Source of the DNA: Fonticella tunisiensis
GTDB lineage: Bacteria > Bacillota > Clostridia > Clostridiales > Caloramatoraceae
Direction: 5' to 3'
Length of the DNA stretch: 64,000 nucleotides
Assembly (NCBI RefSeq): GCF_004364155.1
Contig: NZ_SOAZ01000005.1
Coordinates: 62,001 to 126,000 of the forward strand
Shown here: one piece after another, positions 4,200 to 50,558 of the stretch
Layout of the letters: each line of letters opens with the position of its first letter
How positions within the stretch are numbered: position 1 is the first letter of the stretch
The notes under the pieces: generated by a model
What the model was told of the DNA's origin: nothing
The model's database searches: none
The model's input: the letters and a program-made list of their open reading frames with translations, nothing else
Translations under genes and position numbers: made by a program

Positions 4200-5618
4200 C
4201 TATGCAACTGTTTCAATAGTTTCTGCAAAACTCCTACTTTTTACAAGAAATATTGCTAATAACGCTACGGCTGCTACAATACCGAATGAGTTAGATATTG
4301 AAGCATTAAGCTTAAAGCCTTCCTTTGCCTGAAGAATATAGCTTACCGATACTCCTGACATAAACACTGCAGGAACCGTTGCAATCCAGTGTGGCTTATT
4401 GTACTTGACTAAAAACATTGAGCAAGCCCAGAGTGTTACCATTGCAAGGGTCTGATTGGCCCATGCAAAATATCTCCAGATTATGTTGAAATCAATTTGG
4501 GTTAATCCAATTCCCACTGCAAATAGCGGTACTGCAAGAGCAAGTCTTTTATATATCTTATCCTGCTTGTATTTAATCATATCACCAAGCATAAGCCTTG
4601 CACTTCTAAAGGCAGTGTCCCCTGAAGTTATAGGACATGCGATAACTCCTATCATTGCAAGAACTCCACCGACAGGCCCAAGCAATGTCTTTGTAATCTC
4701 TAAAACAACAGCATTTGGTGTATTCTTAAGAGCTGCTTCAAGCCCTGGTGTTCCGTTGTAGAAGGCCATACCTGCTGCCGCCCAAACAAGAGCTATAACC
4801 CCCTCTGCAACCATTGAGCCATAGAACACACTTCTGCCATACTTTTCATTCTTTAAAGTTCTTGCCATAAGAGGTGACTGAGTTGCATGGAAGCCTGATA
4901 TAGCGCCGCATGCTATTGTTATGAACATAAAGGGCCATATGGAAATTTTAGCCGGATGCAGGTTCTGGAGCGTTATTTCAGGAATATGATATCCCTGTAA
5001 AATTATTCCACCACCAACTCCAAAAGCCATAACTATAAGCGAAATACCGAATATTGGATATAAATTTCCTATGAGCACGTCTATTGGAAGAATTGTAGCC
5101 AGGAAGTAATAAACAAATATTACAACTGCCCAGAACGTAAGATTGTATTTCTCTGGTGTCAATGCTGCAATCAGTCCTGCAGGCCCTGTGACGAATACAA
5201 CACCAACAAGTATTAACAGAACAATTGTAAATGCTCTCATGATGTTTTGAATTGTTTTGCCTAGATAAATCCCCTGAATTTCTGAAATGCTTGCACCGTC
5301 ATGTCTTAATGATATCATGCCTGAAATATAGTCATGAACTGCGCCTGCAAATATTGTTCCAAGAACAATCCATAAAAATGCAGCAGGCCCAAAGAGAGCT
5401 CCCTGGATAGCTCCAAAAATAGGACCAAGTCCTGCAATGTTCAAAAGCTGAATTAGGTAAACCTTCCATGTTGGCATTGGCACATAATCTACGCCGTCCT
5501 GAAGAACATATGCTGGTGTTCGTCTTTCGGAGTTTGCACCAAAGAGCTTTTCAACATATTTCCCATAGACAGCATACCCGATAATTAGAACCATGATTCC
5601 TCCAATGAAAGAAAACAT
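4200..5618 (-). CDS. cstA: CstA/BtsT-family transporter (probable pyruvate or peptide carrier)
   Basis: Polytopic membrane protein of the carbon-starvation CstA family (472 residues), hydrophobic throughout, with conserved family segments such as GPIFGAIQG, AVHDYISGMISLRHDG, SGFHATQSP and CPITSGDTAFRSAR. Its Escherichia coli relatives are the peptide-linked CstA and the pyruvate/H+ symporter BtsT. It is shorter than E. coli CstA (about 700), as is common in Firmicutes. The start at 5618 follows AAAGGAGGGGGT. It lies just downstream of a LytS/LytR-type system; E. coli BtsSR controls btsT in response to pyruvate, so pyruvate uptake is the best inference. Confidence 0.88.
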   Translation of the reverse strand: MFSFIGGIMVLIIGYAVYGKYVEKLFGANSERRTPAYVLQDGVDYVPMPTWKVYLIQLLNIAGLGPIFGAIQGALFGPAAFLWIVLGTIFAGAVHDYISGMISLRHDGASISEIQGIYLGKTIQNIMRAFTIVLLILVGVVFVTGPAGLIAALTPEKYNLTFWAVVIFVYYFLATILPIDVLIGNLYPIFGISLIVMAFGVGGGIILQGYHIPEITLQNLHPAKISIWPFMFITIACGAISGFHATQSPLMARTLKNEKYGRSVFYGSMVAEGVIALVWAAAGMAFYNGTPGLEAALKNTPNAVVLEITKTLLGPVGGVLAMIGVIACPITSGDTAFRSARLMLGDMIKYKQDKIYKRLALAVPLFAVGIGLTQIDFNIIWRYFAWANQTLAMVTLWACSMFLVKYNKPHWIATVPAVFMSGVSVSYILQAKEGFKLNASISNSFGIVAAVALLAIFLVKSRSFAETIETVA

Positions 5619-5665
5619 TTTACCCCCTCCTTTATTTTTGTACAAGCCAATCATACAATAAATTG

Positions 5666-5710
5666 AATTTTCCGACTATTTATTTAGGGTAAAATGTTAA
5701 AATTCGGACT
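5666..5710. promoter_or_regulatory. candidate LytTR-regulator direct repeats upstream of cstA
   Basis: Two similar direct repeats, AATTTTCCGACT (5666-5677) and AATTCGGACT (5701-5710), end 33 bp apart, about three helical turns, 48-92 bp upstream of the cstA start. LytTR-domain regulators typically bind paired direct repeats at about this spacing class. The repeats are short and A/T rich, so this is only a candidate operator for the response regulator encoded next door. Confidence 0.35.
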
Positions 5711-5747
5711 TATCATGCGTAAAATTTAACCTTAAAAAGCAGTGAAT

Positions 5748-6515
5748 TTAAAGCCCTAATATTTCTTTCATTCTTTTAACGTTGTTTCTACTAACGGGTA
5801 TTTCTGATTTTTCATTATCATCCATCACAAGCTTATAGGTGCCATGAAACCATGGATAGAGCTCTTTAACATGGTCAAGGTTTACAAGAAAGCTCCTATG
5901 AGTTCTGAAAAGCCCTGTCCTTTCCTCTATTTCATGAAGAGCATAGTTAGAGTAATATTTTTTATTCTTTAATTTTACATAGATTTGCTCATCTTCTATA
6001 AAACAGTAATACACGTCCTTTATATCTACAAGAACAGTTTTTCCTCCATATTCACAGGGAATTTTCTTTAAAGTATTGTCTATTTTTTGGAGCCTTACCA
6101 GTATTTTTTCAATCTTATCAGAAATATTATCCTGATCAACGTTATTATCCAGTCTATCTTTAATTCTTATGATAGTATTATATATTCTCCTCTCATCATA
6201 GGGTTTTAGCACGTAATCCATTGCATATAGTTCAAAGGCTTCAAGAGCATATTCATCATAGGCAGTTACAAAGACTATGGATATATTCTTATTAAAATCC
6301 CTTATTTTTTTTGCCAGTTCGATTCCATTCATTCCAGGTAAATTTATGTCCAGGAATACAACATCAGGAACTATTTTTTTAACCATTTCATATCCACTAT
6401 TTCCATCAAAGGCAGAACCTTCAATACTCAAAAAATCATACTGTGATAGGAGGTATTTAAGCTCTTCCTCTGATGGAAATTCATCCTCTACAATTATGCA
6501 TTTAACTGTTTTCAT
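5748..6515 (-). CDS. LytR/AlgR-type response regulator
   Basis: Two-component response regulator, 255 residues: receiver domain (about 1-120, phosphoacceptor Asp56 in VFLDINLPGMNG, acidic pair at 11-12, Lys in YVLKPYD) followed by a LytTR DNA-binding domain (about 145-250, with the family's GLFRTHRSFLVNLDHV segment). The start, behind AAGGAGG, overlaps the end of the sensor gene by 14 nt, indicating translational coupling. With cstA immediately downstream it resembles the BtsSR/YpdAB/PftSR class that senses extracellular pyruvate; that ligand assignment is an inference from context. Confidence 0.92.
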   Translation of the reverse strand: MKTVKCIIVEDEFPSEEELKYLLSQYDFLSIEGSAFDGNSGYEMVKKIVPDVVFLDINLPGMNGIELAKKIRDFNKNISIVFVTAYDEYALEAFELYAMDYVLKPYDERRIYNTIIRIKDRLDNNVDQDNISDKIEKILVRLQKIDNTLKKIPCEYGGKTVLVDIKDVYYCFIEDEQIYVKLKNKKYYSNYALHEIEERTGLFRTHRSFLVNLDHVKELYPWFHGTYKLVMDDNEKSEIPVSRNNVKRMKEILGL

Positions 6516-8202
6516 TTATACCATCCTCCTTAGGTACTCTTATAGAAACCCTCGTTCCCTCTTCTATAGAACTTGATATTTCAAACTTATAGTTGTCTCC
6601 ATATATAAACTTTAATCTTTCATTTATGTTTCTAAGGCCTATGCCAGGCCATTCCCTCAATATTGTATTAAGCCTCTCCCTTGTCATGCCAACTCCTGTA
6701 TCTCCCACAATGAAAACAAATTCATTACCTTCCTCAAAGGCCTTTATGAATATGCTGCCTCCAGAAGGTTTTGGAGAAATTCCATGCTTTACAGAATTCT
6801 CAACAATTGGCTGAAGAAGAAACACGGGTATTTTAACCTGCATAATGTTATCTGGAATATCTATGTGCAGTTTAAGCCTGTCTCCAAAACGTGCCCTTTC
6901 AATGGACAGATAGGAGTTAATCAGCTCTATCTCTTCCTTAACCTTCACAAAATCGTTTTCTCTTTTCAACGTCTTTCTAAAGTAGTTTGATAAGTCCATT
7001 ATCAATTCCCTTGCTATTAGGGAATTGGTCCGGCAAAATGATGCAATCGTGTTTAAAGCATTAAAAAGAAAATGAGGATGTATCTGTGCTTGTAAAGCCT
7101 TAAGTTCTGCAGTCGATGCTTCCTGTGCAAGCTTATTAAGCTTGTATAATTCTATTTGTGTTGAAAGCAATTCCCCAATTCCTTTCATATACTCAACAAA
7201 ATATTTATCCATTTCCCCTGCTCTTTCAACCTCTATTCCAAGCACTCCTTCAAAATCCCTATCCTGAATTAGAAGTGGTACGCAATAAAACGTCAGGATT
7301 TTATTAGAATGTTTGAAGGTCATGGTTCCAAATTTAGGATAGTTGTAATATTCCTCCATGAACGTTCTTAGTTTTTGAAATTCAATGCTCTTTCCACAAT
7401 ATACAAGCAGCTCATGTTTATCCCCTATAAACACCCCTTTACTTTCACCTATTTTATAAATTATTTCGGCCACTTTCTGAGCCGTCTCCTTATTAAGCCC
7501 CTTTCTTAGATAATGTATAGTTCGTTTTGCAATGTTTAATGCCTTCTGGGCATGAAATGCACCTACTCTGCTGTATTCATCCCTTGTGTGGTTAATTATA
7601 TCTACGAATATGGCTGCACCTATTGAATTGACCAATATCATTGGTATGGCAATCATTTTTTCCAGTTCGACCGCATTCTCAAAGGGTTTTGAAATAAGTA
7701 TTATTATAGTCATCTGAATAAATTCTGCTATGATACCTGCAAAGAAGGCAGCCATGGTGCTGAATTTCCCATCTCTTTTGTCTCTTCCTGCAATTCCTCC
7801 AATAAGTCCCTCAAAAACCGTTGCAACAGCACAGGCAAGGGCTGTAAAACCTCCTATAAAATATCTGTGTGTTCCTGAAATAATTCCAACAATTATACCT
7901 ATGACCGGCCCCCCAAAATACCCCGCAACAATGGCCCCTATTGGTCTTGTATTGGCAAGGGCCTCACTCTCCAATTCCTTCATATACGTTCCAAAATCTA
8001 AACTGGTAAAATTCTGAGGATCTACAATTATACCCATATAAGTTCCAAGTATGGAAAGTATACTGAAAAAAGATACCATCAGTACCCTATCAGTCAACGT
8101 TAATTTATTTTTTACAATCTTTCTAAATATGTAGGTATGGCTAAAAATATAAGCAGCAAGGGCAATTATAGACATTCGTTCAAGCAACCTGATAAAAAGC
8201 AT
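6502..8202 (-). CDS. LytS-type sensor histidine kinase
   Basis: Membrane sensor kinase of the LytS/BtsS class. From the ATG at 8202 (GGGGGATTCC leader) it has 566 residues. The N-terminal ~200 residues hold several transmembrane helices of the 5TM-LYT type (PIGAIVAGYFGGPVIG and TVFEGLIGGIAG are family hallmarks). A GAF-like segment follows, then the phosphoacceptor box with HPHFLFNALNT, and a HATPase domain with VENSVKHGI and GDTGVGM. It is the first gene of the kinase-regulator pair. The seven codons from an upstream ATG at 8223 are a less likely start. Confidence 0.92.
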   Translation of the reverse strand: MLFIRLLERMSIIALAAYIFSHTYIFRKIVKNKLTLTDRVLMVSFFSILSILGTYMGIIVDPQNFTSLDFGTYMKELESEALANTRPIGAIVAGYFGGPVIGIIVGIISGTHRYFIGGFTALACAVATVFEGLIGGIAGRDKRDGKFSTMAAFFAGIIAEFIQMTIIILISKPFENAVELEKMIAIPMILVNSIGAAIFVDIINHTRDEYSRVGAFHAQKALNIAKRTIHYLRKGLNKETAQKVAEIIYKIGESKGVFIGDKHELLVYCGKSIEFQKLRTFMEEYYNYPKFGTMTFKHSNKILTFYCVPLLIQDRDFEGVLGIEVERAGEMDKYFVEYMKGIGELLSTQIELYKLNKLAQEASTAELKALQAQIHPHFLFNALNTIASFCRTNSLIARELIMDLSNYFRKTLKRENDFVKVKEEIELINSYLSIERARFGDRLKLHIDIPDNIMQVKIPVFLLQPIVENSVKHGISPKPSGGSIFIKAFEEGNEFVFIVGDTGVGMTRERLNTILREWPGIGLRNINERLKFIYGDNYKFEISSSIEEGTRVSIRVPKEDGINENS

Positions 8203-10701: not shown

Positions 10702-10772
10702 ACTTAAATAGCTACATACAAAAATACTAGTATTGTCATAATAATACTTTTGTATGACTATTAATCGGATTC

Positions 10773-10840
10773 ACCCATAGCAGAGATATTTATGGTAATC
10801 TCGTAGAAACGCCCGAACCATATTATCGGGCTTATATGGA
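10773..10840 (-). promoter_or_regulatory. guanine-type purine riboswitch aptamer
   Basis: All three helices are visible on the minus strand. P1 pairs CCATA with TATGG. P2 pairs GCCCG with CGGGC around the loop ATAATATGGTT, and P3 pairs GAGAT with ATCTC around TACCATAAAT. The conserved J2/3 GTTTCTAC is present. The base that decides specificity (just before TATGGG in J3/1) is C, as in guanine/hypoxanthine riboswitches, not U as in adenine ones. It sits in the leader of a purine permease with a terminator downstream. Confidence 0.93.
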
Positions 10841-10901
10841 TGGCAGTTATTAAATTTATTTTTTATATAATATCAACTAGGGAAGATAAAGTCAATGTCA
10901 G

Positions 10902-35501: not shown

Positions 35502-35654
35502 ATGCAAGCAAAAAAAACTACAAATCAACTTGTCATTGTAGGTAAAATAAATGATGTATGCAGCTGTCTAAAGTATTTCGAAAAGAAGTATATCTATGTA
35601 AAGGATTTAATAGAAGCATTGAAATCAGACAATAAAACAAAATGCCTTAACTAA
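35502..35654 (+). CDS. possible 50-residue protein
   Basis: A short frame with a good ribosome site (GAAGGGAGAATTAATT before the ATG) encoding MQAKKTTNQLVIVGKINDVC and ending NKTKCLN. It is basic and unrecognised. The same frame is open upstream through element A to 35220, so a longer 145-codon form is possible. It ends four bases into the convergent MraY-like gene. Low but real support from the ribosome site. Confidence 0.45.
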   Translation: MQAKKTTNQLVIVGKINDVCSCLKYFEKKYIYVKDLIEALKSDNKTKCLN

Positions 35655-36463
35655 TTTTCCTGTCTTTGAGCTGCAACCCTGTGTAAATAGTCCAGAAATG
35701 GACTTTTTATTATTGCCTCAATTAATACATGCCTCTTGTTTACAGCATAAAATAAAGGAACAGATAAAGACATAACTGAAATCACAAGTAGATTCGTAGA
35801 AAACATTTCCGATAGAATGAATCCAACTCCAAAACCTATTAAGTTTGAGCCTGATTTTCCAAGGGCTGAATAATGCCAATTATCAAAGCAGTAATAGGGT
35901 GCTAAGACTAAAACCATTATATTATAAAGCTCCCTGGTCCATCTTAGAGATGAAAATGCAGCAAGTATATAGAATAGGAAATAAGCCCTGATACTTCTTC
36001 CGGGTTTATTGTCTATAAGGCTAAACAGGATTGAAATGGATGTTGTCAAAATTCCCTTAAAAATCCAATATTCCTCGTTAAAAAAGAAAAAGATGTAGGA
36101 GGATATTATTAAAATAGCCGTATAATTAATAAATCCTGTAGAAAGAAGCCTTTTAAGCAATGATCTTAATCTTTTTTTCTCTTTTGGCGCAGTATGATGT
36201 CCATATAAATCATCAAAGATACCAATGAAATATATTACAAAGAGACTGATTATATAAAATAAAAATTTGAAAAGTGAGACCTCCCTTTGAAAGTAAAGCA
36301 GGCAGTAGGATACGGATATTCCTAAAAATATTACACTTCCTCCCGAATATGGAATAGAAATTTCTTCATCTATATTCTTTACAAGGTGAAGCTTTTGGAA
36401 TATCAAGGGCAAAATTAAAGACAGCATCGTGGTTAATATAAGTGTTGATTCATAAACTATCAT
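35651..36463 (-). CDS. MraY/WecA-like glycosyl-1-phosphate transferase family protein
   Basis: Polytopic membrane protein of 270 residues, with an early IPYSGGSVIFLGISVSYCLL, a DDxxG-type FVIYFIGIFDDLYGHHTAPK near residue 87 and LFSLIDNKPGRSIRAYFLF near residue 145. These correspond to the GG, D-D and D-N-x-P-G-R motifs of the polyprenyl-phosphate glycosyltransferase family 4. It is shorter than MraY (about 320) and the C-terminal loops differ, so the enzyme activity is uncertain. It may serve an envelope or spore polysaccharide. The start follows AGGAGTGAGGAT. It lies left of the invertible segment and may be its leftward target. Confidence 0.72.
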   Translation of the reverse strand: MIVYESTLILTTMLSLILPLIFQKLHLVKNIDEEISIPYSGGSVIFLGISVSYCLLYFQREVSLFKFLFYIISLFVIYFIGIFDDLYGHHTAPKEKKRLRSLLKRLLSTGFINYTAILIISSYIFFFFNEEYWIFKGILTTSISILFSLIDNKPGRSIRAYFLFYILAAFSSLRWTRELYNIMVLVLAPYYCFDNWHYSALGKSGSNLIGFGVGFILSEMFSTNLLVISVMSLSVPLFYAVNKRHVLIEAIIKSPFLDYLHRVAAQRQEN

Positions 36464-36781
36464 ATCCTCACTCCTCTATAAACAGTATGGCATTTTTGAA
36501 ATTCTGATATTATTTTGCCATAAAAAGAAAAAAATAAACCTGAATACCATACCTAGAAGCAGTGAGAATATATTCAATAAAAAACAGATCCTATCATTTA
36601 ATGGCTCAGTATTCTATCTCCAATCACATTCTATTTCCCCTGTTAAATTCTAACACTATGCTGTAAGTGACAGACAGAAAAATTAACTCTAGAAATTTGA
36701 GAAAAGAACGAATAGACTGTATATAATTCTAGAAAAATATAAATAAATCAATCATTCAATGCATTTTATAGCATAAGACGT
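36464..36781. other. intergenic region left of the invertible segment
   Basis: No gene is visible. It would be the 5' leader of the MraY-like gene if that gene is driven by the promoter inside the invertible segment. A small inverted repeat (TATGGCA at 36486-36492, TGCCATA at 36516-36522) sits near the ribosome site and could fold in the leader. No convincing promoter was seen inside this stretch itself. Confidence 0.4.
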
Positions 36782-36811
36782 AACAATATGTATATAATGT
36801 TGCTTTTTATA
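36782..36811 (+). repeat. inverted repeat, left arm (30 bp)
   Basis: Begins AACAATATGTATATAATGTT and matches the reverse complement of 37627-37656 at all 30 positions. The outer flanking bases differ between the two sides. Confidence 0.97.
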
Positions 36812-36852
36812 TATAATTTGACATAAAACAACATTTCTTTTTATATAAAAGC

Positions 36853-36881
36853 ATTTTACACCAAATTTTGCAAAATTTCAA
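36853..36881 (-). promoter_or_regulatory. outward-facing SigA-type promoter inside the invertible segment
   Basis: On the minus strand TTGAAA (36881-36876), a 17-base spacer and TAAAAT (36858-36853). It would start transcription near 36846, running out across the left repeat towards the MraY-like gene. If the segment inverts it will face the FapA/HD-GYP/Spo0E operon instead. A/T-rich DNA makes chance matches possible. A second match, TTGACA at 36818-36823 with a TATATA 18 bases on, faces inward on the plus strand, antisense to the recombinase. Confidence 0.5.
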
Positions 36882-36892
36882 TATTAATAAAA

Positions 36893-36926
36893 CTACCCCT
36901 ATCTTGATCACTTGAGTTAGGGGTAG
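36893..36926 (-). terminator. terminator of the recombinase gene
   Basis: Hairpin with nine-base arms CTACCCCTA / TAGGGGTAG, followed on the minus strand by TTTTATT. It lies just past the recombinase stop and upstream of the outward promoter, so recombinase transcripts stop before the repeat. Confidence 0.85.
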
Positions 36927-36934
36927 AAGAATTT

Positions 36935-37495
36935 TTATAATTGTACTATGGAATATAATTCATCTTTTTGGTCTTGATTTACACCAATATATCTCAAAGT
37001 TATACTTTGAGAACTATGATTAAAGGTATCCATGATTAAACCAATATTATACTTAGACATTCGATATGTCCAATATCCCCAGGTTTTTCTTAGACTGTGC
37101 GTTCCAAAATTCTCAATGCCAACAGCACTTGCTGCCTCTTTTAAAACTCGGTACACCTGAATGCGGCCGAGATGTCCACCTTTCTGGCTATAGAATATAT
37201 AACTATCATCTGTAAAGTTTTGGTCTTTAACATATGTAGTGATGGCCTTTCGCAGCACATCATTCAATTTTATCTTTTTCTCTTTTCCTGTTTTCTTTTC
37301 TTTTATAACAAGATATTCACGGAATTGACCATTACTATTGAAAATATCTTTTATTTTTAAAGGAATGATATCACTAATTCTTAACCCTGTATTTATGCCA
37401 AATTTAAAAAGCAGAGCATATTTAGGATCATAACCATTTAAGTATTGATACATCTGTTTAATCTTATTTTTTTCTCTTATGGGCTCAACCGTCAT
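36935..37495 (-). CDS. short tyrosine recombinase (FimB/FimE-size invertase candidate)
   Basis: Catalytic-domain-only tyrosine recombinase of 186 residues, without the N-terminal SAM-like DNA-binding domain of XerC/XerD. Catalytic residues: Arg39 in NTGLRISDI, His133 and Arg136 in GTHSLRKTWG, His160 in FNHSSQ and the nucleophile Tyr169 in LRYIGV. The length is near that of the phase-variation recombinases FimB and FimE (about 200). I chose the ATG at 37495 behind AAGGAG; an ATG eight codons earlier has none. The gene lies between the two perfect 30-bp inverted repeats, which are the likely substrate. Confidence 0.9.
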   Translation of the reverse strand: MTVEPIREKNKIKQMYQYLNGYDPKYALLFKFGINTGLRISDIIPLKIKDIFNSNGQFREYLVIKEKKTGKEKKIKLNDVLRKAITTYVKDQNFTDDSYIFYSQKGGHLGRIQVYRVLKEAASAVGIENFGTHSLRKTWGYWTYRMSKYNIGLIMDTFNHSSQSITLRYIGVNQDQKDELYSIVQL

Positions 37496-37530
37496 GTACA
37501 GCACTCCTTTATGCAACATTTAACAATAAT

Positions 37531-37559
37531 ATATTAAAAAACGTTACATCAATTTTCAA
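37531..37559 (-). promoter_or_regulatory. promoter of the recombinase gene
   Basis: TTGAAA (37559-37554), 17-base spacer, TAATAT (37536-37531) on the minus strand, about 36 bases upstream of the recombinase start. Good match to the SigA consensus. Confidence 0.65.
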
Positions 37560-37626
37560 CAATTTTCTTCAAAAAATGCTAACATTTTTTTATCAACATC
37601 TTTATATGTAAACAATTTTACAAAAC

Positions 37627-37656
37627 TATAAAAAGCAACATTATATACATATTGTT
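37627..37656 (-). repeat. inverted repeat, right arm (30 bp)
   Basis: Exact reverse complement of 36782-36811. Lies 138 bp upstream of the FapA-domain gene. Confidence 0.97.
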
Positions 37657-37681
37657 GCATTTTATTTAACTAAAAAAATAC

Positions 37682-37793: not shown

Positions 37794-39743
37794 ATGTTGT
37801 TTACTGCGTTTGATATTAAAGAAGCAATAATAAAAGCCAGTGAATTTTATAGATGTAATGAAAATGAGTTAAAAATACATATTATCAAACAGCCATATTA
37901 CAGATTCTGGGGCATAATAAAGAAAGAAGGAATATTTCGCATTGAGCTCATACAGCCTAAAACGCAGCAAAAAGAAAATAAAAGAATAGAGAATGGCACA
38001 GTTGAGATATCATCGGGAAAGATAAAGGTAACGGACCCTTCACCTGAGGGAAAATATGCCTCAATTATAGCTGACGATCCAAATATTCAAGTATACATTA
38101 ATGATAAGGTGGTAGAAGGCAGTGCTATTGTTACAGAAAAAGACAGAATAGAATTTAAGGCAAAGACTATCGCTCCTTCTACCAAGATAAAAGTTGATAT
38201 ATCAGGCGATAAGCTCAAAGCAACTTTAACAATAGAAAAAAAACCGGGCAAGGAATACTTTGTTAAGGATGCAGGACGCCAAAACTCCGTACATATATGT
38301 TCGGACTTCAGGGAAATTCCAGCTCCCAAAGTTACACTTTACCAGTGTATTGAAGAGCTGCTGAAAGCAGGCGTTAAAATACAGTATATCAATGTCCAGG
38401 CTATCAATGATCTGATAAATTCACCTAATGGTGGAAGTTCTGTTGTAGCAAAGGGTGAAGCTCCAATTCACGGATTTAACAGCAAAATAAAATATCTATT
38501 CAACAACAGTAGTTATCGCAATCCCGATTTTGATACGGACAAACAAGTAGATCTTTTAAGCCACACTATTATTCCTACTGTAAGTATTGGTGACGTACTG
38601 GCAATTAAAGTTATGCCAGCCATACCAGGCAGGGATGGTGTTGCGGTGACAGGAGAGATTCTTAAAGCACATCATGGAAGGGATATTCCTTTAAAGGCAG
38701 GAAAAGGTACAGTTTTGCTGGATAATGATATGAAGATCGTAGCTATTTCTTCAGGACGTCCTGTACTACATGATGGTGTTGTCAGTGTTTTACCGACACT
38801 TACAATTTCACACGATGTTGATGTCAGGACGGGTAATGTCCATTTTGACGGTGACATAGTCATTAAGGGTAATATCATGGACAACATAAAAGTTGAAGCC
38901 GAAGGAAATATTATAGTGTTCGGAAATATTAATCAGGCAAAGGTTTCTTCTAAAGGAAATATAGAAGTACATGGCAGCATAATTAACAGTAAAGTACGAG
39001 CTGGTGCAAGCGTAATCAACTATTTATACGTACTACCTAAAATGAAACAGGTACAGGATATATTTAAAGAAATGTACACCAGAGTTAAAATGCTGCAGCC
39101 ATCTCAATATACGGAATATCAATTAAAAAATATAGTTATAGATGCAGGTAGAAAAATAATAAAAACAACAAATGACTTAACAAAATTGTTTGATCTTCTG
39201 ACAGATGATGACATTGAAAAAGTCAACAATATTTTAAGAGAAGTCAAAAAACTGCTTTTGAACACAAAAATGCCCGTAACAAAAAGTTTCGAACAAATTA
39301 ACACCATTGCTACACTGATTAACGATTATATAGAAGAAATTAAAGGTTCATATGACAGGCAGGCAAATATCTTGTTTAAGTATGGTCAAAATTCCTGCAT
39401 TCAGGCAAATGGAAATATTGATATTATAGGACAGGGAAGCTATCAAACAGATTTAATAGCGAGAAATTCAATTATATTCCATAAACCTTCCAGCATCGTT
39501 CGTGGAGGTATGTTAATTGCTGGAAAGCGTATTAAGATGGGGATAGTAGGATCCCCTTCTGGCATTTCAACCTACTGCAGGGTGCTTGATAAAGATGGAA
39601 AGATAGATGCTGCATACTATTATGATAATACAATTTTAAACTTTAATAATAACATAAAAATTATGCATGATAATGCTTTTTCTCTAACTAACTCAGAAAA
39701 TAAATACAAAGGAAATGAAAATTATGCAACAAATGCAAAGTAA
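37794..39743 (+). CDS. FapA-domain (DUF342) protein
   Basis: A 649-residue protein of the FapA/DUF342 family. The region from about 180 to 400 has the family's beta-rich repeats: GSSVVAKGEAPIHGFNSKI, then VKVMPAIPGRDGVAVTGEIL-like sequence, then VSHDVDVRTGNVHFDGDIVI and NIKVEAEGNIIVFGNI. A helical region (about 420-530) follows, and the C-terminus has another beta-helix-like stretch. The N-terminal ~60 residues look like a Jag-N-type domain (FRCNENELKIHIIKQPYYRFWG). FapA-type proteins are polymer-forming and poorly understood. First gene of a three-gene operon, with GGGAG ribosome site, next to the invertible segment. Confidence 0.85.
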   Translation: MLFTAFDIKEAIIKASEFYRCNENELKIHIIKQPYYRFWGIIKKEGIFRIELIQPKTQQKENKRIENGTVEISSGKIKVTDPSPEGKYASIIADDPNIQVYINDKVVEGSAIVTEKDRIEFKAKTIAPSTKIKVDISGDKLKATLTIEKKPGKEYFVKDAGRQNSVHICSDFREIPAPKVTLYQCIEELLKAGVKIQYINVQAINDLINSPNGGSSVVAKGEAPIHGFNSKIKYLFNNSSYRNPDFDTDKQVDLLSHTIIPTVSIGDVLAIKVMPAIPGRDGVAVTGEILKAHHGRDIPLKAGKGTVLLDNDMKIVAISSGRPVLHDGVVSVLPTLTISHDVDVRTGNVHFDGDIVIKGNIMDNIKVEAEGNIIVFGNINQAKVSSKGNIEVHGSIINSKVRAGASVINYLYVLPKMKQVQDIFKEMYTRVKMLQPSQYTEYQLKNIVIDAGRKIIKTTNDLTKLFDLLTDDDIEKVNNILREVKKLLLNTKMPVTKSFEQINTIATLINDYIEEIKGSYDRQANILFKYGQNSCIQANGNIDIIGQGSYQTDLIARNSIIFHKPSSIVRGGMLIAGKRIKMGIVGSPSGISTYCRVLDKDGKIDAAYYYDNTILNFNNNIKIMHDNAFSLTNSENKYKGNENYATNAK

Positions 39744-40395
39744 AGATAACAAGGCTTCTTATAATGAATGGCATCGGAAGATAAAAAGACATGGAACTTT
39801 TATCTTTTATTTTCGATTTAAACTCATAAAAATACTTCTTTTATTAATGAGACAAAAAGACGAATACACATACACCCACAGTATAAGGGTTATGAGACTT
39901 GCATATGGTTATGCAAAGTATTATGATTTACCGGGCCATGAAATAAAAATATTGAAATACGCTTCGCTGCTACATGATATTGGAAAACTCGCTATCCCTA
40001 AAAGAATATTATCGAAAAACGAAAGGCTGGACGATGATGAATATAGAAAAATAAAGAAGCATCCACATATAGGCTATTTAATTACAAAGTACATACTTCA
40101 CATGAAGGACGAAGCATGCATAATAAGAAAGCATCATGAAAGAATAGATGGCAAAGGGTATCCATTTGGTTTAAAAAGCGCCGAAATTGATGAATTAAGC
40201 AAAATAATTTCTATATGTGATGCCTTTGATGCAATGACCACCAATCGTGTATATAGAAAAAAATCAAACCTTCATGATGCCCTTGTTGAGCTTTCAGCCC
40301 ATGCAGGAACTCAATTTGATAAGACGATTTTATTAAATTTTTTTAAGTATATAAATTCAAAGTTCAATACTATTAATGTCTTTAAGAAAGGATGA
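39724..40395 (+). CDS. HD-GYP domain protein (probable c-di-GMP phosphodiesterase)
   Basis: About 223 residues, an HD-GYP domain almost alone. The HD motif is in LLHDIGKLAIPKRIL, followed by KKHPHIGYLI, the HHERIDGKGYP GYP motif, and ISICDAFDAMTTNRVYR. All metal ligands and the GYP triad are present, so cyclic-di-GMP hydrolysis is expected. There is no receiver domain; the N-terminal 45 residues are basic and partly hydrophobic (FRFKLIKILLLLMR) and may contact the membrane. I chose ATG 39724 (AAAGGA nine bases before) over ATG 39715. It overlaps the FapA gene by 20 nt. Confidence 0.88.
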   Translation: MQQMQSKDNKASYNEWHRKIKRHGTFIFYFRFKLIKILLLLMRQKDEYTYTHSIRVMRLAYGYAKYYDLPGHEIKILKYASLLHDIGKLAIPKRILSKNERLDDDEYRKIKKHPHIGYLITKYILHMKDEACIIRKHHERIDGKGYPFGLKSAEIDELSKIISICDAFDAMTTNRVYRKKSNLHDALVELSAHAGTQFDKTILLNFFKYINSKFNTINVFKKG

Positions 40396-40610
40396 TAAAA
40401 TTGGAATTACATAAACAAGGTTTTGTGAAGGACAAGCCTGTAAAGGACGAAATAGAAAAGTTAAGAACAAAATTATACCAGTTGATTTGCGATATGAAAA
40501 ATTTTAATCTATCCGACGAAGTAATAAGTATTAGTCAGGATTTGGATAAATTGATATGTGCTTATTATAAAGAGGAACAGAATAATATGAAGCCTACAAA
40601 CTGCATTTAA
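40392..40610 (+). CDS. Spo0E-like phosphatase (Spo0E/YisI family)
   Basis: A 72-residue helical protein. EIEKLRTKLYQLI followed by SISQDLDKLICAYYK is the Spo0E-family pattern, including the SQxLD signature whose Asp is catalytic. Family members dephosphorylate Spo0A-phosphate and so delay sporulation. The start is either ATG 40392, overlapping the HD-GYP stop (ATGA), or TTG 40401, which has better spacing from AAAGGA. It is convergent with spo0A itself, 236 bp away, and co-transcribed with an HD-GYP gene, so the operon looks like a brake on sporulation entry. Confidence 0.82.
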   Translation: MIKLELHKQGFVKDKPVKDEIEKLRTKLYQLICDMKNFNLSDEVISISQDLDKLICAYYKEEQNNMKPTNCI

Positions 40611-40845: not shown

Positions 40846-41646
40846 TTATCCCAACTTGCTTTTCAATCTTAACTTATCAGCCACCATTGCAATAAACTCT
40901 GAATTTGTTGGCTTGCCTTTATCGTTGTGCACAGTGTATCCAAACAACCTATTTATAGTTTCAACCTGTCCCCTTGACCATGCGACTTCAATTGCATGTC
41001 TTATGGCCCTTTCTACCCTGCTTGCTGTTGTATTATATCTTTTTGCTATTGAAGGGTATAGTTCCTTTGTAACCGCACTTAAAAGCTCCACATCGTTTAC
41101 AACCATCTGAATTGCTTCTCTTAAATAAAGATACCCTTTTATATGAGCTGGAACTCCAATCTCATGTATTATATTTGTAATTTCTGCTTCAAGGGAGTTG
41201 GAATTTATATAGCTCTGGCTTTCTGGCACTACTCCGCCTGTTCTTCTAACTTCTGTTGAAACACCCGATGAAAACATCTGCCTGATTCTTTTTGATAGGA
41301 TCTCCATGTCGAAGGGTTTTACAACATAATATTCTGCTCCCAGGTTTATAGCCCTCTGTGTAATCTTATCCTGTCCTACAGCAGATAGCACAATAACCTT
41401 AGGCATAGGCACATTCGTCATGGAATTGATTTTTTCAAGAACTCCAAGTCCATCAAGATGGGGCATGATGATATCAAGTACAAGCGCATCGGGTTGATGG
41501 CTTGATACAAGCTTAACCGCCTCAAGCCCGTCCTTGGCTATTCCAACCACTTCAAAGTCATTCTGACCTTTTAAATAATCACTCAAGATACCGGAAAATT
41601 CCTTGTTATCATCTGCAATAACTATTTTGATTTTACCGTTTTCCAT
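40846..41646 (-). CDS. spo0A: sporulation master regulator Spo0A
   Basis: Spo0A, 266 residues from the ATG at 41646 (GGGAGGTTACATT before it). The receiver domain has the acidic residues in [10 protein letters not shown] (Asp12, Asp13), the phosphoacceptor Asp58 in [14 protein letters not shown] and the Lys in YVVKPFDME. The C-terminal DNA-binding domain (about 150-266) includes [19 protein letters not shown] and the recognition helix [19 protein letters not shown]. It controls sporulation onset and, in Clostridia, solventogenesis and other stationary-phase genes. Conserved order spoIVB-spo0A. The promoter has SigH and 0A-box elements. Confidence 0.97.
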
Positions 41647-41687
41647 AATGTAACCTCCCATTTAACTTCCATTTCCTAGCAAAGTAT

Positions 41688-41716
41688 TTATTCGACAAAA
41701 CTATAAATATTCCTTC
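41688..41716 (-). promoter_or_regulatory. SigH promoter of spo0A with an overlapping 0A box
   Basis: On the minus strand GAAGGAATA, an 11-base spacer and GTCGAATAA match the SigH consensus (RNAGGAWWW - RNNGAATWW) in full. The 0A box TGTCGAA (41697-41691) lies across the -10 element. A weaker TGTCGCT is found at 41800-41794. The promoter is about 42 bases upstream of the start codon. The rest of 41647-42041 holds only this site and the spoIVB terminator. Confidence 0.82.
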
Positions 41717-49913: not shown

Positions 49914-49944
49914 TATTATAATAACCACCTTATATGTAGCCCAA

Positions 49945-50523
49945 AGTGGCGACAGAAAAGGTTAAGTTTGCGGCTTAGGTCCAGCAGGCTTTCCCATTTT
50001 TGAGACCAGAGCGTCGCCACTCTGGCGGTTTCCCTTTAACCAAAAATCCATACCGTTGCCGGTTATGGGGCTGGATTACCACTTAGTCCACACTGCAATC
50101 CCTTTTCTGCCTCAATCGAACAGTCTAGGAGTTTTCCTCAACAGAATAATCCTATTCTAGCCTCTTTTGCAGGACTGGTTTCCTACAGCAATAGTTCGCA
50201 TATATTGGCCTTTATATGCAAACCTGATCTGTCCTCCACCAATCCCACTCAAGGCAGGCTACGCTGCAAGCAGCTTCAAACCGCTATGCAGGTTTAATCC
50301 CGTGCCGTAATACTTTAAAATACCACGCACACGGGTCTCCGCGAAGGTAGGGTCGATTACGCATGCCATTGCGGTCGCCCCATCCCCCTTACTCCCAGCA
50401 CCAACCCACTACTGGGCGTAGCAGGCCAGCACAAGGAACTTCATCGATGTGCCCTTTGACGGATTTTTAGCCCCGCCTTCAAATAGGATATATCTGACTA
50501 GAATACTGCGCCACCCTGGCTGA
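49945..50523 (-). ncRNA. ole: OLE RNA (ornate large extremophilic RNA)
   Basis: A stretch of about 580 bases with no open frame and much higher G+C than its surroundings, rich in local hairpins. One pairs the CAGAGTGGCGACGCTCTG segment; the 3' end carries GTCGCCACTTTGG, which can pair with an earlier GTGGCGAC. It lies between the isoprenyl diphosphate synthase and oapA-dxs genes on the same strand, the classical position of OLE RNA. Known OLE RNAs are about 600 nt, form membrane ribonucleoprotein complexes with OapA and affect tolerance of cold, alcohol and Mg2+. Ends are estimated from the promoter and the oapA ribosome site. Confidence 0.88.
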
Positions 50524-50529
50524 AACAAC

Positions 50530-50558
50530 ATTCTATCATAATTATACATAACACACAA
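50530..50558 (-). promoter_or_regulatory. promoter of the OLE RNA
   Basis: TTGTGT (50558-50553), 17-base spacer, TAGAAT (50535-50530) on the minus strand, placing the start near 50523, at the G+C jump. Two hairpins upstream separate it from the isoprenyl synthase gene. Confidence 0.6.

Follow-up and report, generated by a model that had tools for sequence, protein, structure and literature searches.

Two perfect inverted repeats in the genome of Fonticella tunisiensis enclose the gene of a tyrosine recombinase (YR) beside an operon with c-di-GMP and sporulation functions, and the first-pass annotation had taken them for the ends of a self-inverting switch. Is the segment an invertible promoter cassette, which of its neighbours would it control, and could it be a small mobile element instead? 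The window is the whole stretch of DNA that was analysed (64,000 nucleotides of contig NZ_SOAZ01000005.1), and coordinates given without a locus label refer to it. From its sequence and that of its relatives, the segment is in our judgement probably a self-contained invertible promoter cassette for the signalling operon.

The unit in the window

The repeats are present as annotated, 30 bp each at 36782-36811 and 37627-37656, separated by 815 bp; the pair is 92% identical over 39 bp, and perfect inverted repeats reached at most 19 bp in 100 Markov shuffles of the surrounding 4 kb. The recombination sites proper are not these repeats; they are two inverted, dif-like 28-bp dyads of layout 11+6+11, which delimit a full unit of 883 bp (36778-37660) around the recombinase. 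Site A, at the fapA-proximal end 5' of the recombinase gene, occupies 37633-37660 (+; the - strand reads ATGCAACAATA-TGTATA-TAATGTTGCTT); site B, at the end distal to the recombinase start, occupies 36778-36805 (-; the + strand reads ACGTAACAATA-TGTATA-TAATGTTGCTT). The two spacers are identical in inverted orientation, and the unit thus has the hallmark of an inverton, inverted sites with matching spacers around a segment. It is single-copy in the F. tunisiensis genome, in which a pattern search found no second site pair of the family.

The enclosed open reading frame (36935-37519, -) matches Phage_integrase (PF00589, 2.3e-25) and, from the conserved start MTVEPIR at 37495, encodes 186 residues (36935-37495, -). 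Residues R39, H133, R136, H160 and Y169 are invariant across 26 homologues and form the R-H-R-H-Y set of tyrosine recombinases, intact as first annotated. The protein weakly matches FimB/FimE-type invertase models and XerH/XerA structures; with 32.8 bits for NF007371 (cut-off 222) and 26.2 bits for NF007370 (cut-off 221), it falls outside the FimB/FimE-type families.

A promoter and a terminator for the recombinase had also been placed inside the unit. The terminator is visible in the sequence as a hairpin with a 9-bp G+C-rich stem and a T-rich tail on the - strand, just downstream of the gene (36893-36926, -); the terminator scanner missed it (loop too long), and it probably separates the recombinase from a promoter at the B end. 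The recombinase promoter, TTGAAA-17-TAATAT (37531-37559, -), is a prediction that draws on the enrichment of an inward signal at this place across 36 units, the window match alone being no better than chance. A second predicted promoter, TTGAAA-17-TAAAAT (36853-36881, -; 10/12 match), points left through site B and would face fapA after inversion. None of 60 shuffles of the B-end region contained a match as good; promoter-like matches in the AT-rich stretch of the window, both predicted promoters included, are no commoner than in shuffles, and the window promoters therefore rest on the enrichment seen in the family.

Next to site A lies a fapA-like gene (37794-39743, +; FapA_N, 5.9e-34, and FapA), the first of the proposed switched operon, followed by the gene of an HD-GYP protein with HHERIDGKGYP intact (39715-40395, +; HD_5, 1.1e-30), probably a c-di-GMP phosphodiesterase, and that of a Spo0E-like protein with SQDLD (40392-40610, +; PF09388, 7e-12), possibly a Spo0A~P phosphatase. 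This FapA is 50-60% identical to the FapA adjoining the unit in loci L170 and L034 and 25-32% identical to FapA of the same family, and the HD-GYP protein is 60% identical to that of L170. The FapA proteins at 25-32% do not belong to the orthologous operon and therefore yielded no comparison with an empty site. The operon (37794-40610, +) does not stand directly before spo0A, as had been annotated, and is instead convergent with it (40846-41661, -). The distance from site A to the fapA start is 134 bp, in which fapA may have a promoter of its own. Ten GGDEF proteins indicate that c-di-GMP signalling exists in this genome; no riboswitch was found near the unit. On the other side, the gene first annotated as MraY-like (35651-36463, -) encodes a membrane protein with no Pfam family and only sub-cutoff NCBIfam matches, and is left without a family. 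Elsewhere in the window are a full-length OLE RNA (RF01071, 542 bits; 49930-50530, -) and a purine riboswitch aptamer (74 bits; 10758-10859, -).

Related units, paired sites and inversion

Searches of clostridial genomes gave about 40 related units; their recombinases are about 68-81% identical, and almost all have inverted sites. One collection scan gave such homologues in some 30 clostridial genomes or MAGs, and whole-genome searches added more. In nearly all of them inverted copies of the 28-bp dyad lie 25-245 bp before and 60-185 bp after the recombinase gene, with the consensus ATGTAACAATW-TnnnnA-WWWTGTTACAT (11+6+11). When 35 loci are compared with one another, variation is greatest in the 6-bp spacer (47% of positions, against 24-30% in the arms); within those loci the two ends mismatch at 1 of 210 spacer positions and 72 of 770 arm positions. 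For L043 and L045 the register set by the script was off, and their spacers also match when read by eye. Both the pairing of the sites and the matching of their spacers are read directly from the sequences. Strand exchange by a tyrosine recombinase between two such divergent sites needs matched spacers, and since no spacer in the family is palindromic, the outcome of recombination would be inversion.

Recombinase homologues of 51-60% identity have no flanking sites, so that a recombinase of this kind need not imply a switch. Recombinases about 52% identical, also without flanking inverted sites, were seen in L161-L165 (near 5000-7300), where a conserved 460-aa gene follows immediately downstream of each and is assigned by Pfam to radical SAM in L161; a 49%-identical one in L063 and L064 (Anaerosolibacter), again without inverted sites, lies just downstream of spo0A. 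In L044 the B site is duplicated, so that a single recombinase is surrounded by three sites that share a spacer type (4836, 5652, 5740).

Units with intact sites and no recombinase coexist with a recombinase copy in three genomes (G044, G050, G392), which suggests that they are recombined in trans by that copy. Because their spacers are unlike those found in intact units, each such unit is expected to recombine only its own two ends. Two of them in G044 (L106, 5045-5338; L107, 5025-5320) are segments of about 270 bp with inverted sites and remnants of the 5' region of the recombinase gene, located upstream of a c-di-GMP-I riboswitch plus MCP-CheW and CheY operons; the recombinase unit of that genome, L037, has a decayed second site. 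L106, L107 and L108 are internally deleted, non-autonomous derivatives.

A trace of inversion comes from such units. L108 (G050, Acetivibrio mesophilus) and L250 (G392) each lack an intact recombinase and lie upstream of the same cheW-cheA operon; their flanks are collinear, and both interior ends align reversed (86% over 139 bp and 75% over 138 bp). We read this alignment as a natural inversion, the interior having been inverted in place at an orthologous Acetivibrio locus of two species. The orthologous FapA/HD-GYP operon (50-60% identical) has the unit B-proximal in L170 and A-proximal in the window, which is supporting and not decisive, the two loci being from distant genomes. The ends of two contigs of Caloranaerobacter azorensis both fall precisely on a site, by which the contigs overlap. 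Such an arrangement would arise if the culture contained both joins, and it may also have another cause in the assembly. Comparison with related genomes thus found the sites conserved and opposite orientations at orthologous loci and, together with the paired sites and the placement described below, supports the earlier reading of an invertible segment with its own recombinase beside a c-di-GMP and sporulation operon.

The window assembly has one orientation only, and the cassette might have been invertible formerly and now be locked, its sites intact and its recombinase silent or its orientation fixed in the lineage. Relatives with decayed second sites or degenerate recombinases (L037, L155, L156, L250) would fit such a course; in the window unit the 30-bp repeats are perfect, the spacers identical and the catalytic residues all intact, which speaks against it, and we consider a locked state unlikely here. 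Flipping of the cassette in this strain is what we infer from the state of its sites and from its relatives.

Placement beside signalling operons and a predicted outward promoter

The units keep to one kind of neighbour. Among 38 units with usable flanks, 36 adjoin MCP, CheA, CheW, CheY, EAL/GGDEF, HD-GYP, Spo0E/HD-GYP or FapA genes, as against 2 of 344 open reading frames near other kinds of tyrosine recombinases; reference proteins for labelling the neighbours came from the loci themselves, and the general families were confirmed by Pfam. This target bias is a plain feature of the family's sequences, with L037 and L154 as exceptions. The unit is usually directly 5' of the signalling operon, with the signalling gene on the A side (5' of the recombinase gene, divergent) in 33 units and on the B side in three (L051, L057, L170); the fragment L060 is also B-proximal. 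On the recombinase tree, target class (chemotaxis or c-di-GMP) changes seven times, against a shuffled mean of 11.7, and none of 200 shuffles gave as few changes; the window recombinase belongs to a supported clade of six, all with targets of c-di-GMP-phosphodiesterase type. In eight loci a c-di-GMP-I riboswitch lies between unit and operon (L042, L048, L049, L050, L061, L106, L107, L108). A lone site 160 bp upstream of an MCP gene was seen in L110 (6045-6072), with no partner found; in L046 (2471-3217) the adjoining MCP is a 249-aa fragment whose open reading frame runs into site A, and this unit may lie inside an MCP gene.

Some properties of the family recall a small mobile element, an IS-like tyrosine-recombinase unit with chance inverted-repeat ends that was inserted upstream of fapA: its distribution is patchy (15 of 391 genomes of the class, 17 of 226 of the order), several copies can occur in one genome (four in G041/G310), and the deleted, non-autonomous derivatives L106-L108 resemble MITEs. 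Over evolutionary time the cassette does spread or duplicate, as is seen from the patchiness and the multiple copies. Against mobility as the explanation of the locus, almost all copies stand beside one functional operon class, target class follows the recombinase tree, inverted sites with matched spacers direct inversion and not excision, the interior has been inverted in place at an orthologous locus, the window genome has a single copy, and no copy above 60% identity was found in 72,556 plasmids or 50,697 phages. Unrelated insertion sites with target duplications, by which the first-pass annotation would have recognized a mobile element, were not what was found, the neighbours being related in function; we hold this explanation to be very improbable.

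For an invertible promoter cassette, an outward promoter is needed at one end. It was initially expected at the A end, where no outward enrichment was found (0 of 36 units at p<=0.05); the B end was enriched instead. Matches of sigma-A type exceed shuffles at two places, the recombinase's own inward promoter at the A end and the B end outward through site B; across 36 units, outward B-end matches at p<=0.05 occur in 31% of loci, compared with 0-9% in other regions apart from the recombinase promoter. A second motif, AGGA-N14-GTCGAA, reads outward in 12 of the 36 B ends, is absent from the A ends, flanks and recombinase genes of those 36, and is present in all four recombinase-less or degenerate units (L106, L107, L108, L250). 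It is enriched genome-wide: seven genomes contain 70 copies, against 17 of the reversed pattern. The motif is identical to the SigH consensus of Sporomusa, -35 AGGA and -10 GAAT 17-18 nt apart, which was mapped by transcription starts and for which spo0A is listed too (PMC12456013); in the window the canonical sigma-H motif AGGA-N17-GAAT stands at 41690-41714 (-), 29-53 bp upstream of spo0A. Another reading of the B-end TGTCGAA is a Spo0A box; sigma-H agrees better with the constant AGGA-17-GAAT spacing and with the position at spo0A, and a 0A box may overlap the sigma-H motif. The B end of the window has no sigma-H motif and a sigma-A-like match in its place. No consistent enrichment of sigma-D promoters was found in the unit regions.

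At the A ends of L039, L041-L043, L046, L059 and L061, two further half-sites that together resemble a site, with a spacer about 10 bp longer, were recognized by eye; they bracket the -10 of the recombinase promoter and may serve in autoregulation.

In the proposed mechanism, the recombinase would cut and exchange strands within the 6-bp spacers of the inverted dif-like sites and so flip its own coding segment, and the B-end promoter, located beyond the recombinase terminator, would read outward through site B. With the B end abutting the signalling operon, the operon would be transcribed (ON); with the A end abutting, the promoter would point away (OFF). The leader from site A to the start codon is only 30-60 bp in several loci, which leaves little room for another promoter. 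In many relatives the sigma-H promoter at the B end would tie the ON state to the physiology of transition phase and sporulation entry, and in several the c-di-GMP-I riboswitch between switch and operon would act as a second gate. The window cassette is A-proximal and thus predicted to be OFF toward fapA-HD-GYP-spo0E; a flip would connect the operon to the sigma-A-like B-end promoter. Effects on c-di-GMP and Spo0A~P would follow from what is known of the protein families.

As sequenced, the cassette has its B-end promoter and its recombinase gene directed toward the membrane-protein gene on the left (35651-36463), which is on the same strand, and it could be this gene, or both neighbours alternately, that an inverting unit controls in the window. 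In other members of the same orientation the B-side gene is mostly convergent and of no shared family, the A-side gene being the conserved class, and it is the FapA subgroup that recurs with the unit in L034 and L170, not the membrane protein. A left-hand target is accordingly rated as having a small chance, and the fapA operon is kept as the probable target of the cassette.

Relation to known switches

The best-known invertible promoters are those of surface structures in pathogens and gut bacteria. In the fim switch of E. coli, recombinases of similar size (FimB/FimE) invert a promoter from outside the segment; in the hin switch of Salmonella, the serine recombinase Hin is encoded within the inverted segment, beside an outward promoter. 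Both act on surface structures, unlike the present family. The hin switch is also noted in PMC5903667, as is an 844-bp invertible segment of Providencia stuartii that encloses its recombinase; the latter resembles the present unit in size and layout and differs in belonging to a fimbrial locus of Gammaproteobacteria with 14-bp imperfect repeats.

Phase-variable control of c-di-GMP and motility by inversion is established in Clostridioides difficile, where tyrosine recombinases invert the flg, cmr, pdcB and pdcC switches of motility and c-di-GMP enzymes (PMC6837544, PMC9286219, PMC7446863). These are like the present family also in being partly combined with c-di-GMP riboswitches and, for pdcB, in an invertible promoter. 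They differ in that the segments measure 154-230 bp with the recombinase outside, that the repeats are mostly unrelated to each other and that no recombinase has been identified for pdcB; RecV is encoded elsewhere and acts in trans, whereas the present recombinase lies inside its segment with no other site pair in the window genome. Action in trans within the present family is plausible only for the recombinase-less units of relatives.

The first-pass annotation knew of no described switch of this composition. That claim holds in part: a family defined by one recombinase lineage, a dif-like site with locus-specific spacer, a self-encoded recombinase, an outward sigma-H or sigma-A promoter and coupling to chemotaxis or c-di-GMP was not found described in the open-access literature that was searched, while RecV-type c-di-GMP switches of C. 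difficile and clostridial inversions near signalling and chemotaxis genes have been published. We lean, by a modest margin, toward a general picture in which self-encoded clostridial cassettes bring a sigma-H or sigma-A promoter in and out of register with chemotaxis and c-di-GMP operons, are sometimes stacked on c-di-GMP riboswitches, shed recombinase-less copies driven in trans, and serve as a bet-hedging device at the decision to swim, settle or sporulate; the fapA-HD-GYP-spo0E copy of the window would couple directly to Spo0A. Genes of motility or c-di-GMP signalling would then probably be set on or off in these bacteria by a heritable coin toss. In environmental, thermophilic and gut clostridia alike, recombinase, sites and promoter recur within about 0.9 kb next to chemotaxis and c-di-GMP genes. 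If the picture is true, part of a clonal population would be committed in advance to motility or to c-di-GMP breakdown at transition phase, and a single PCR per strain would suffice to test for heterogeneity in sporulation and motility. For finding such switches in sequence data alone, the rule of paired sites and the promoter motif of the B end are of practical use.

Genome G392, presumably one of C. thermocellum, has exactly two site pairs of the family, both at chemotaxis operons. According to Sekulovic et al. 2018 (PMC5903667), read pairs place clostridial invertible sites most often near signalling and chemotaxis genes; the sites named include an MCP in Anaerotignum propionicum and an HD phosphodiesterase in Desulfitobacterium dehalogenans, and two are chemotaxis-linked in C. 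thermocellum DSM 1313. Like the present units, these are short segments between inverted repeats, found in Clostridia next to genes for MCPs, chemotaxis and HD-type phosphodiesterases; the main-text passages list read signatures and contain no definition of a recombinase family, a shared 28-bp site, a self-encoded clostridial layout or a sigma-H promoter. The two site pairs of G392 are likely the invertible sites published for C. thermocellum.
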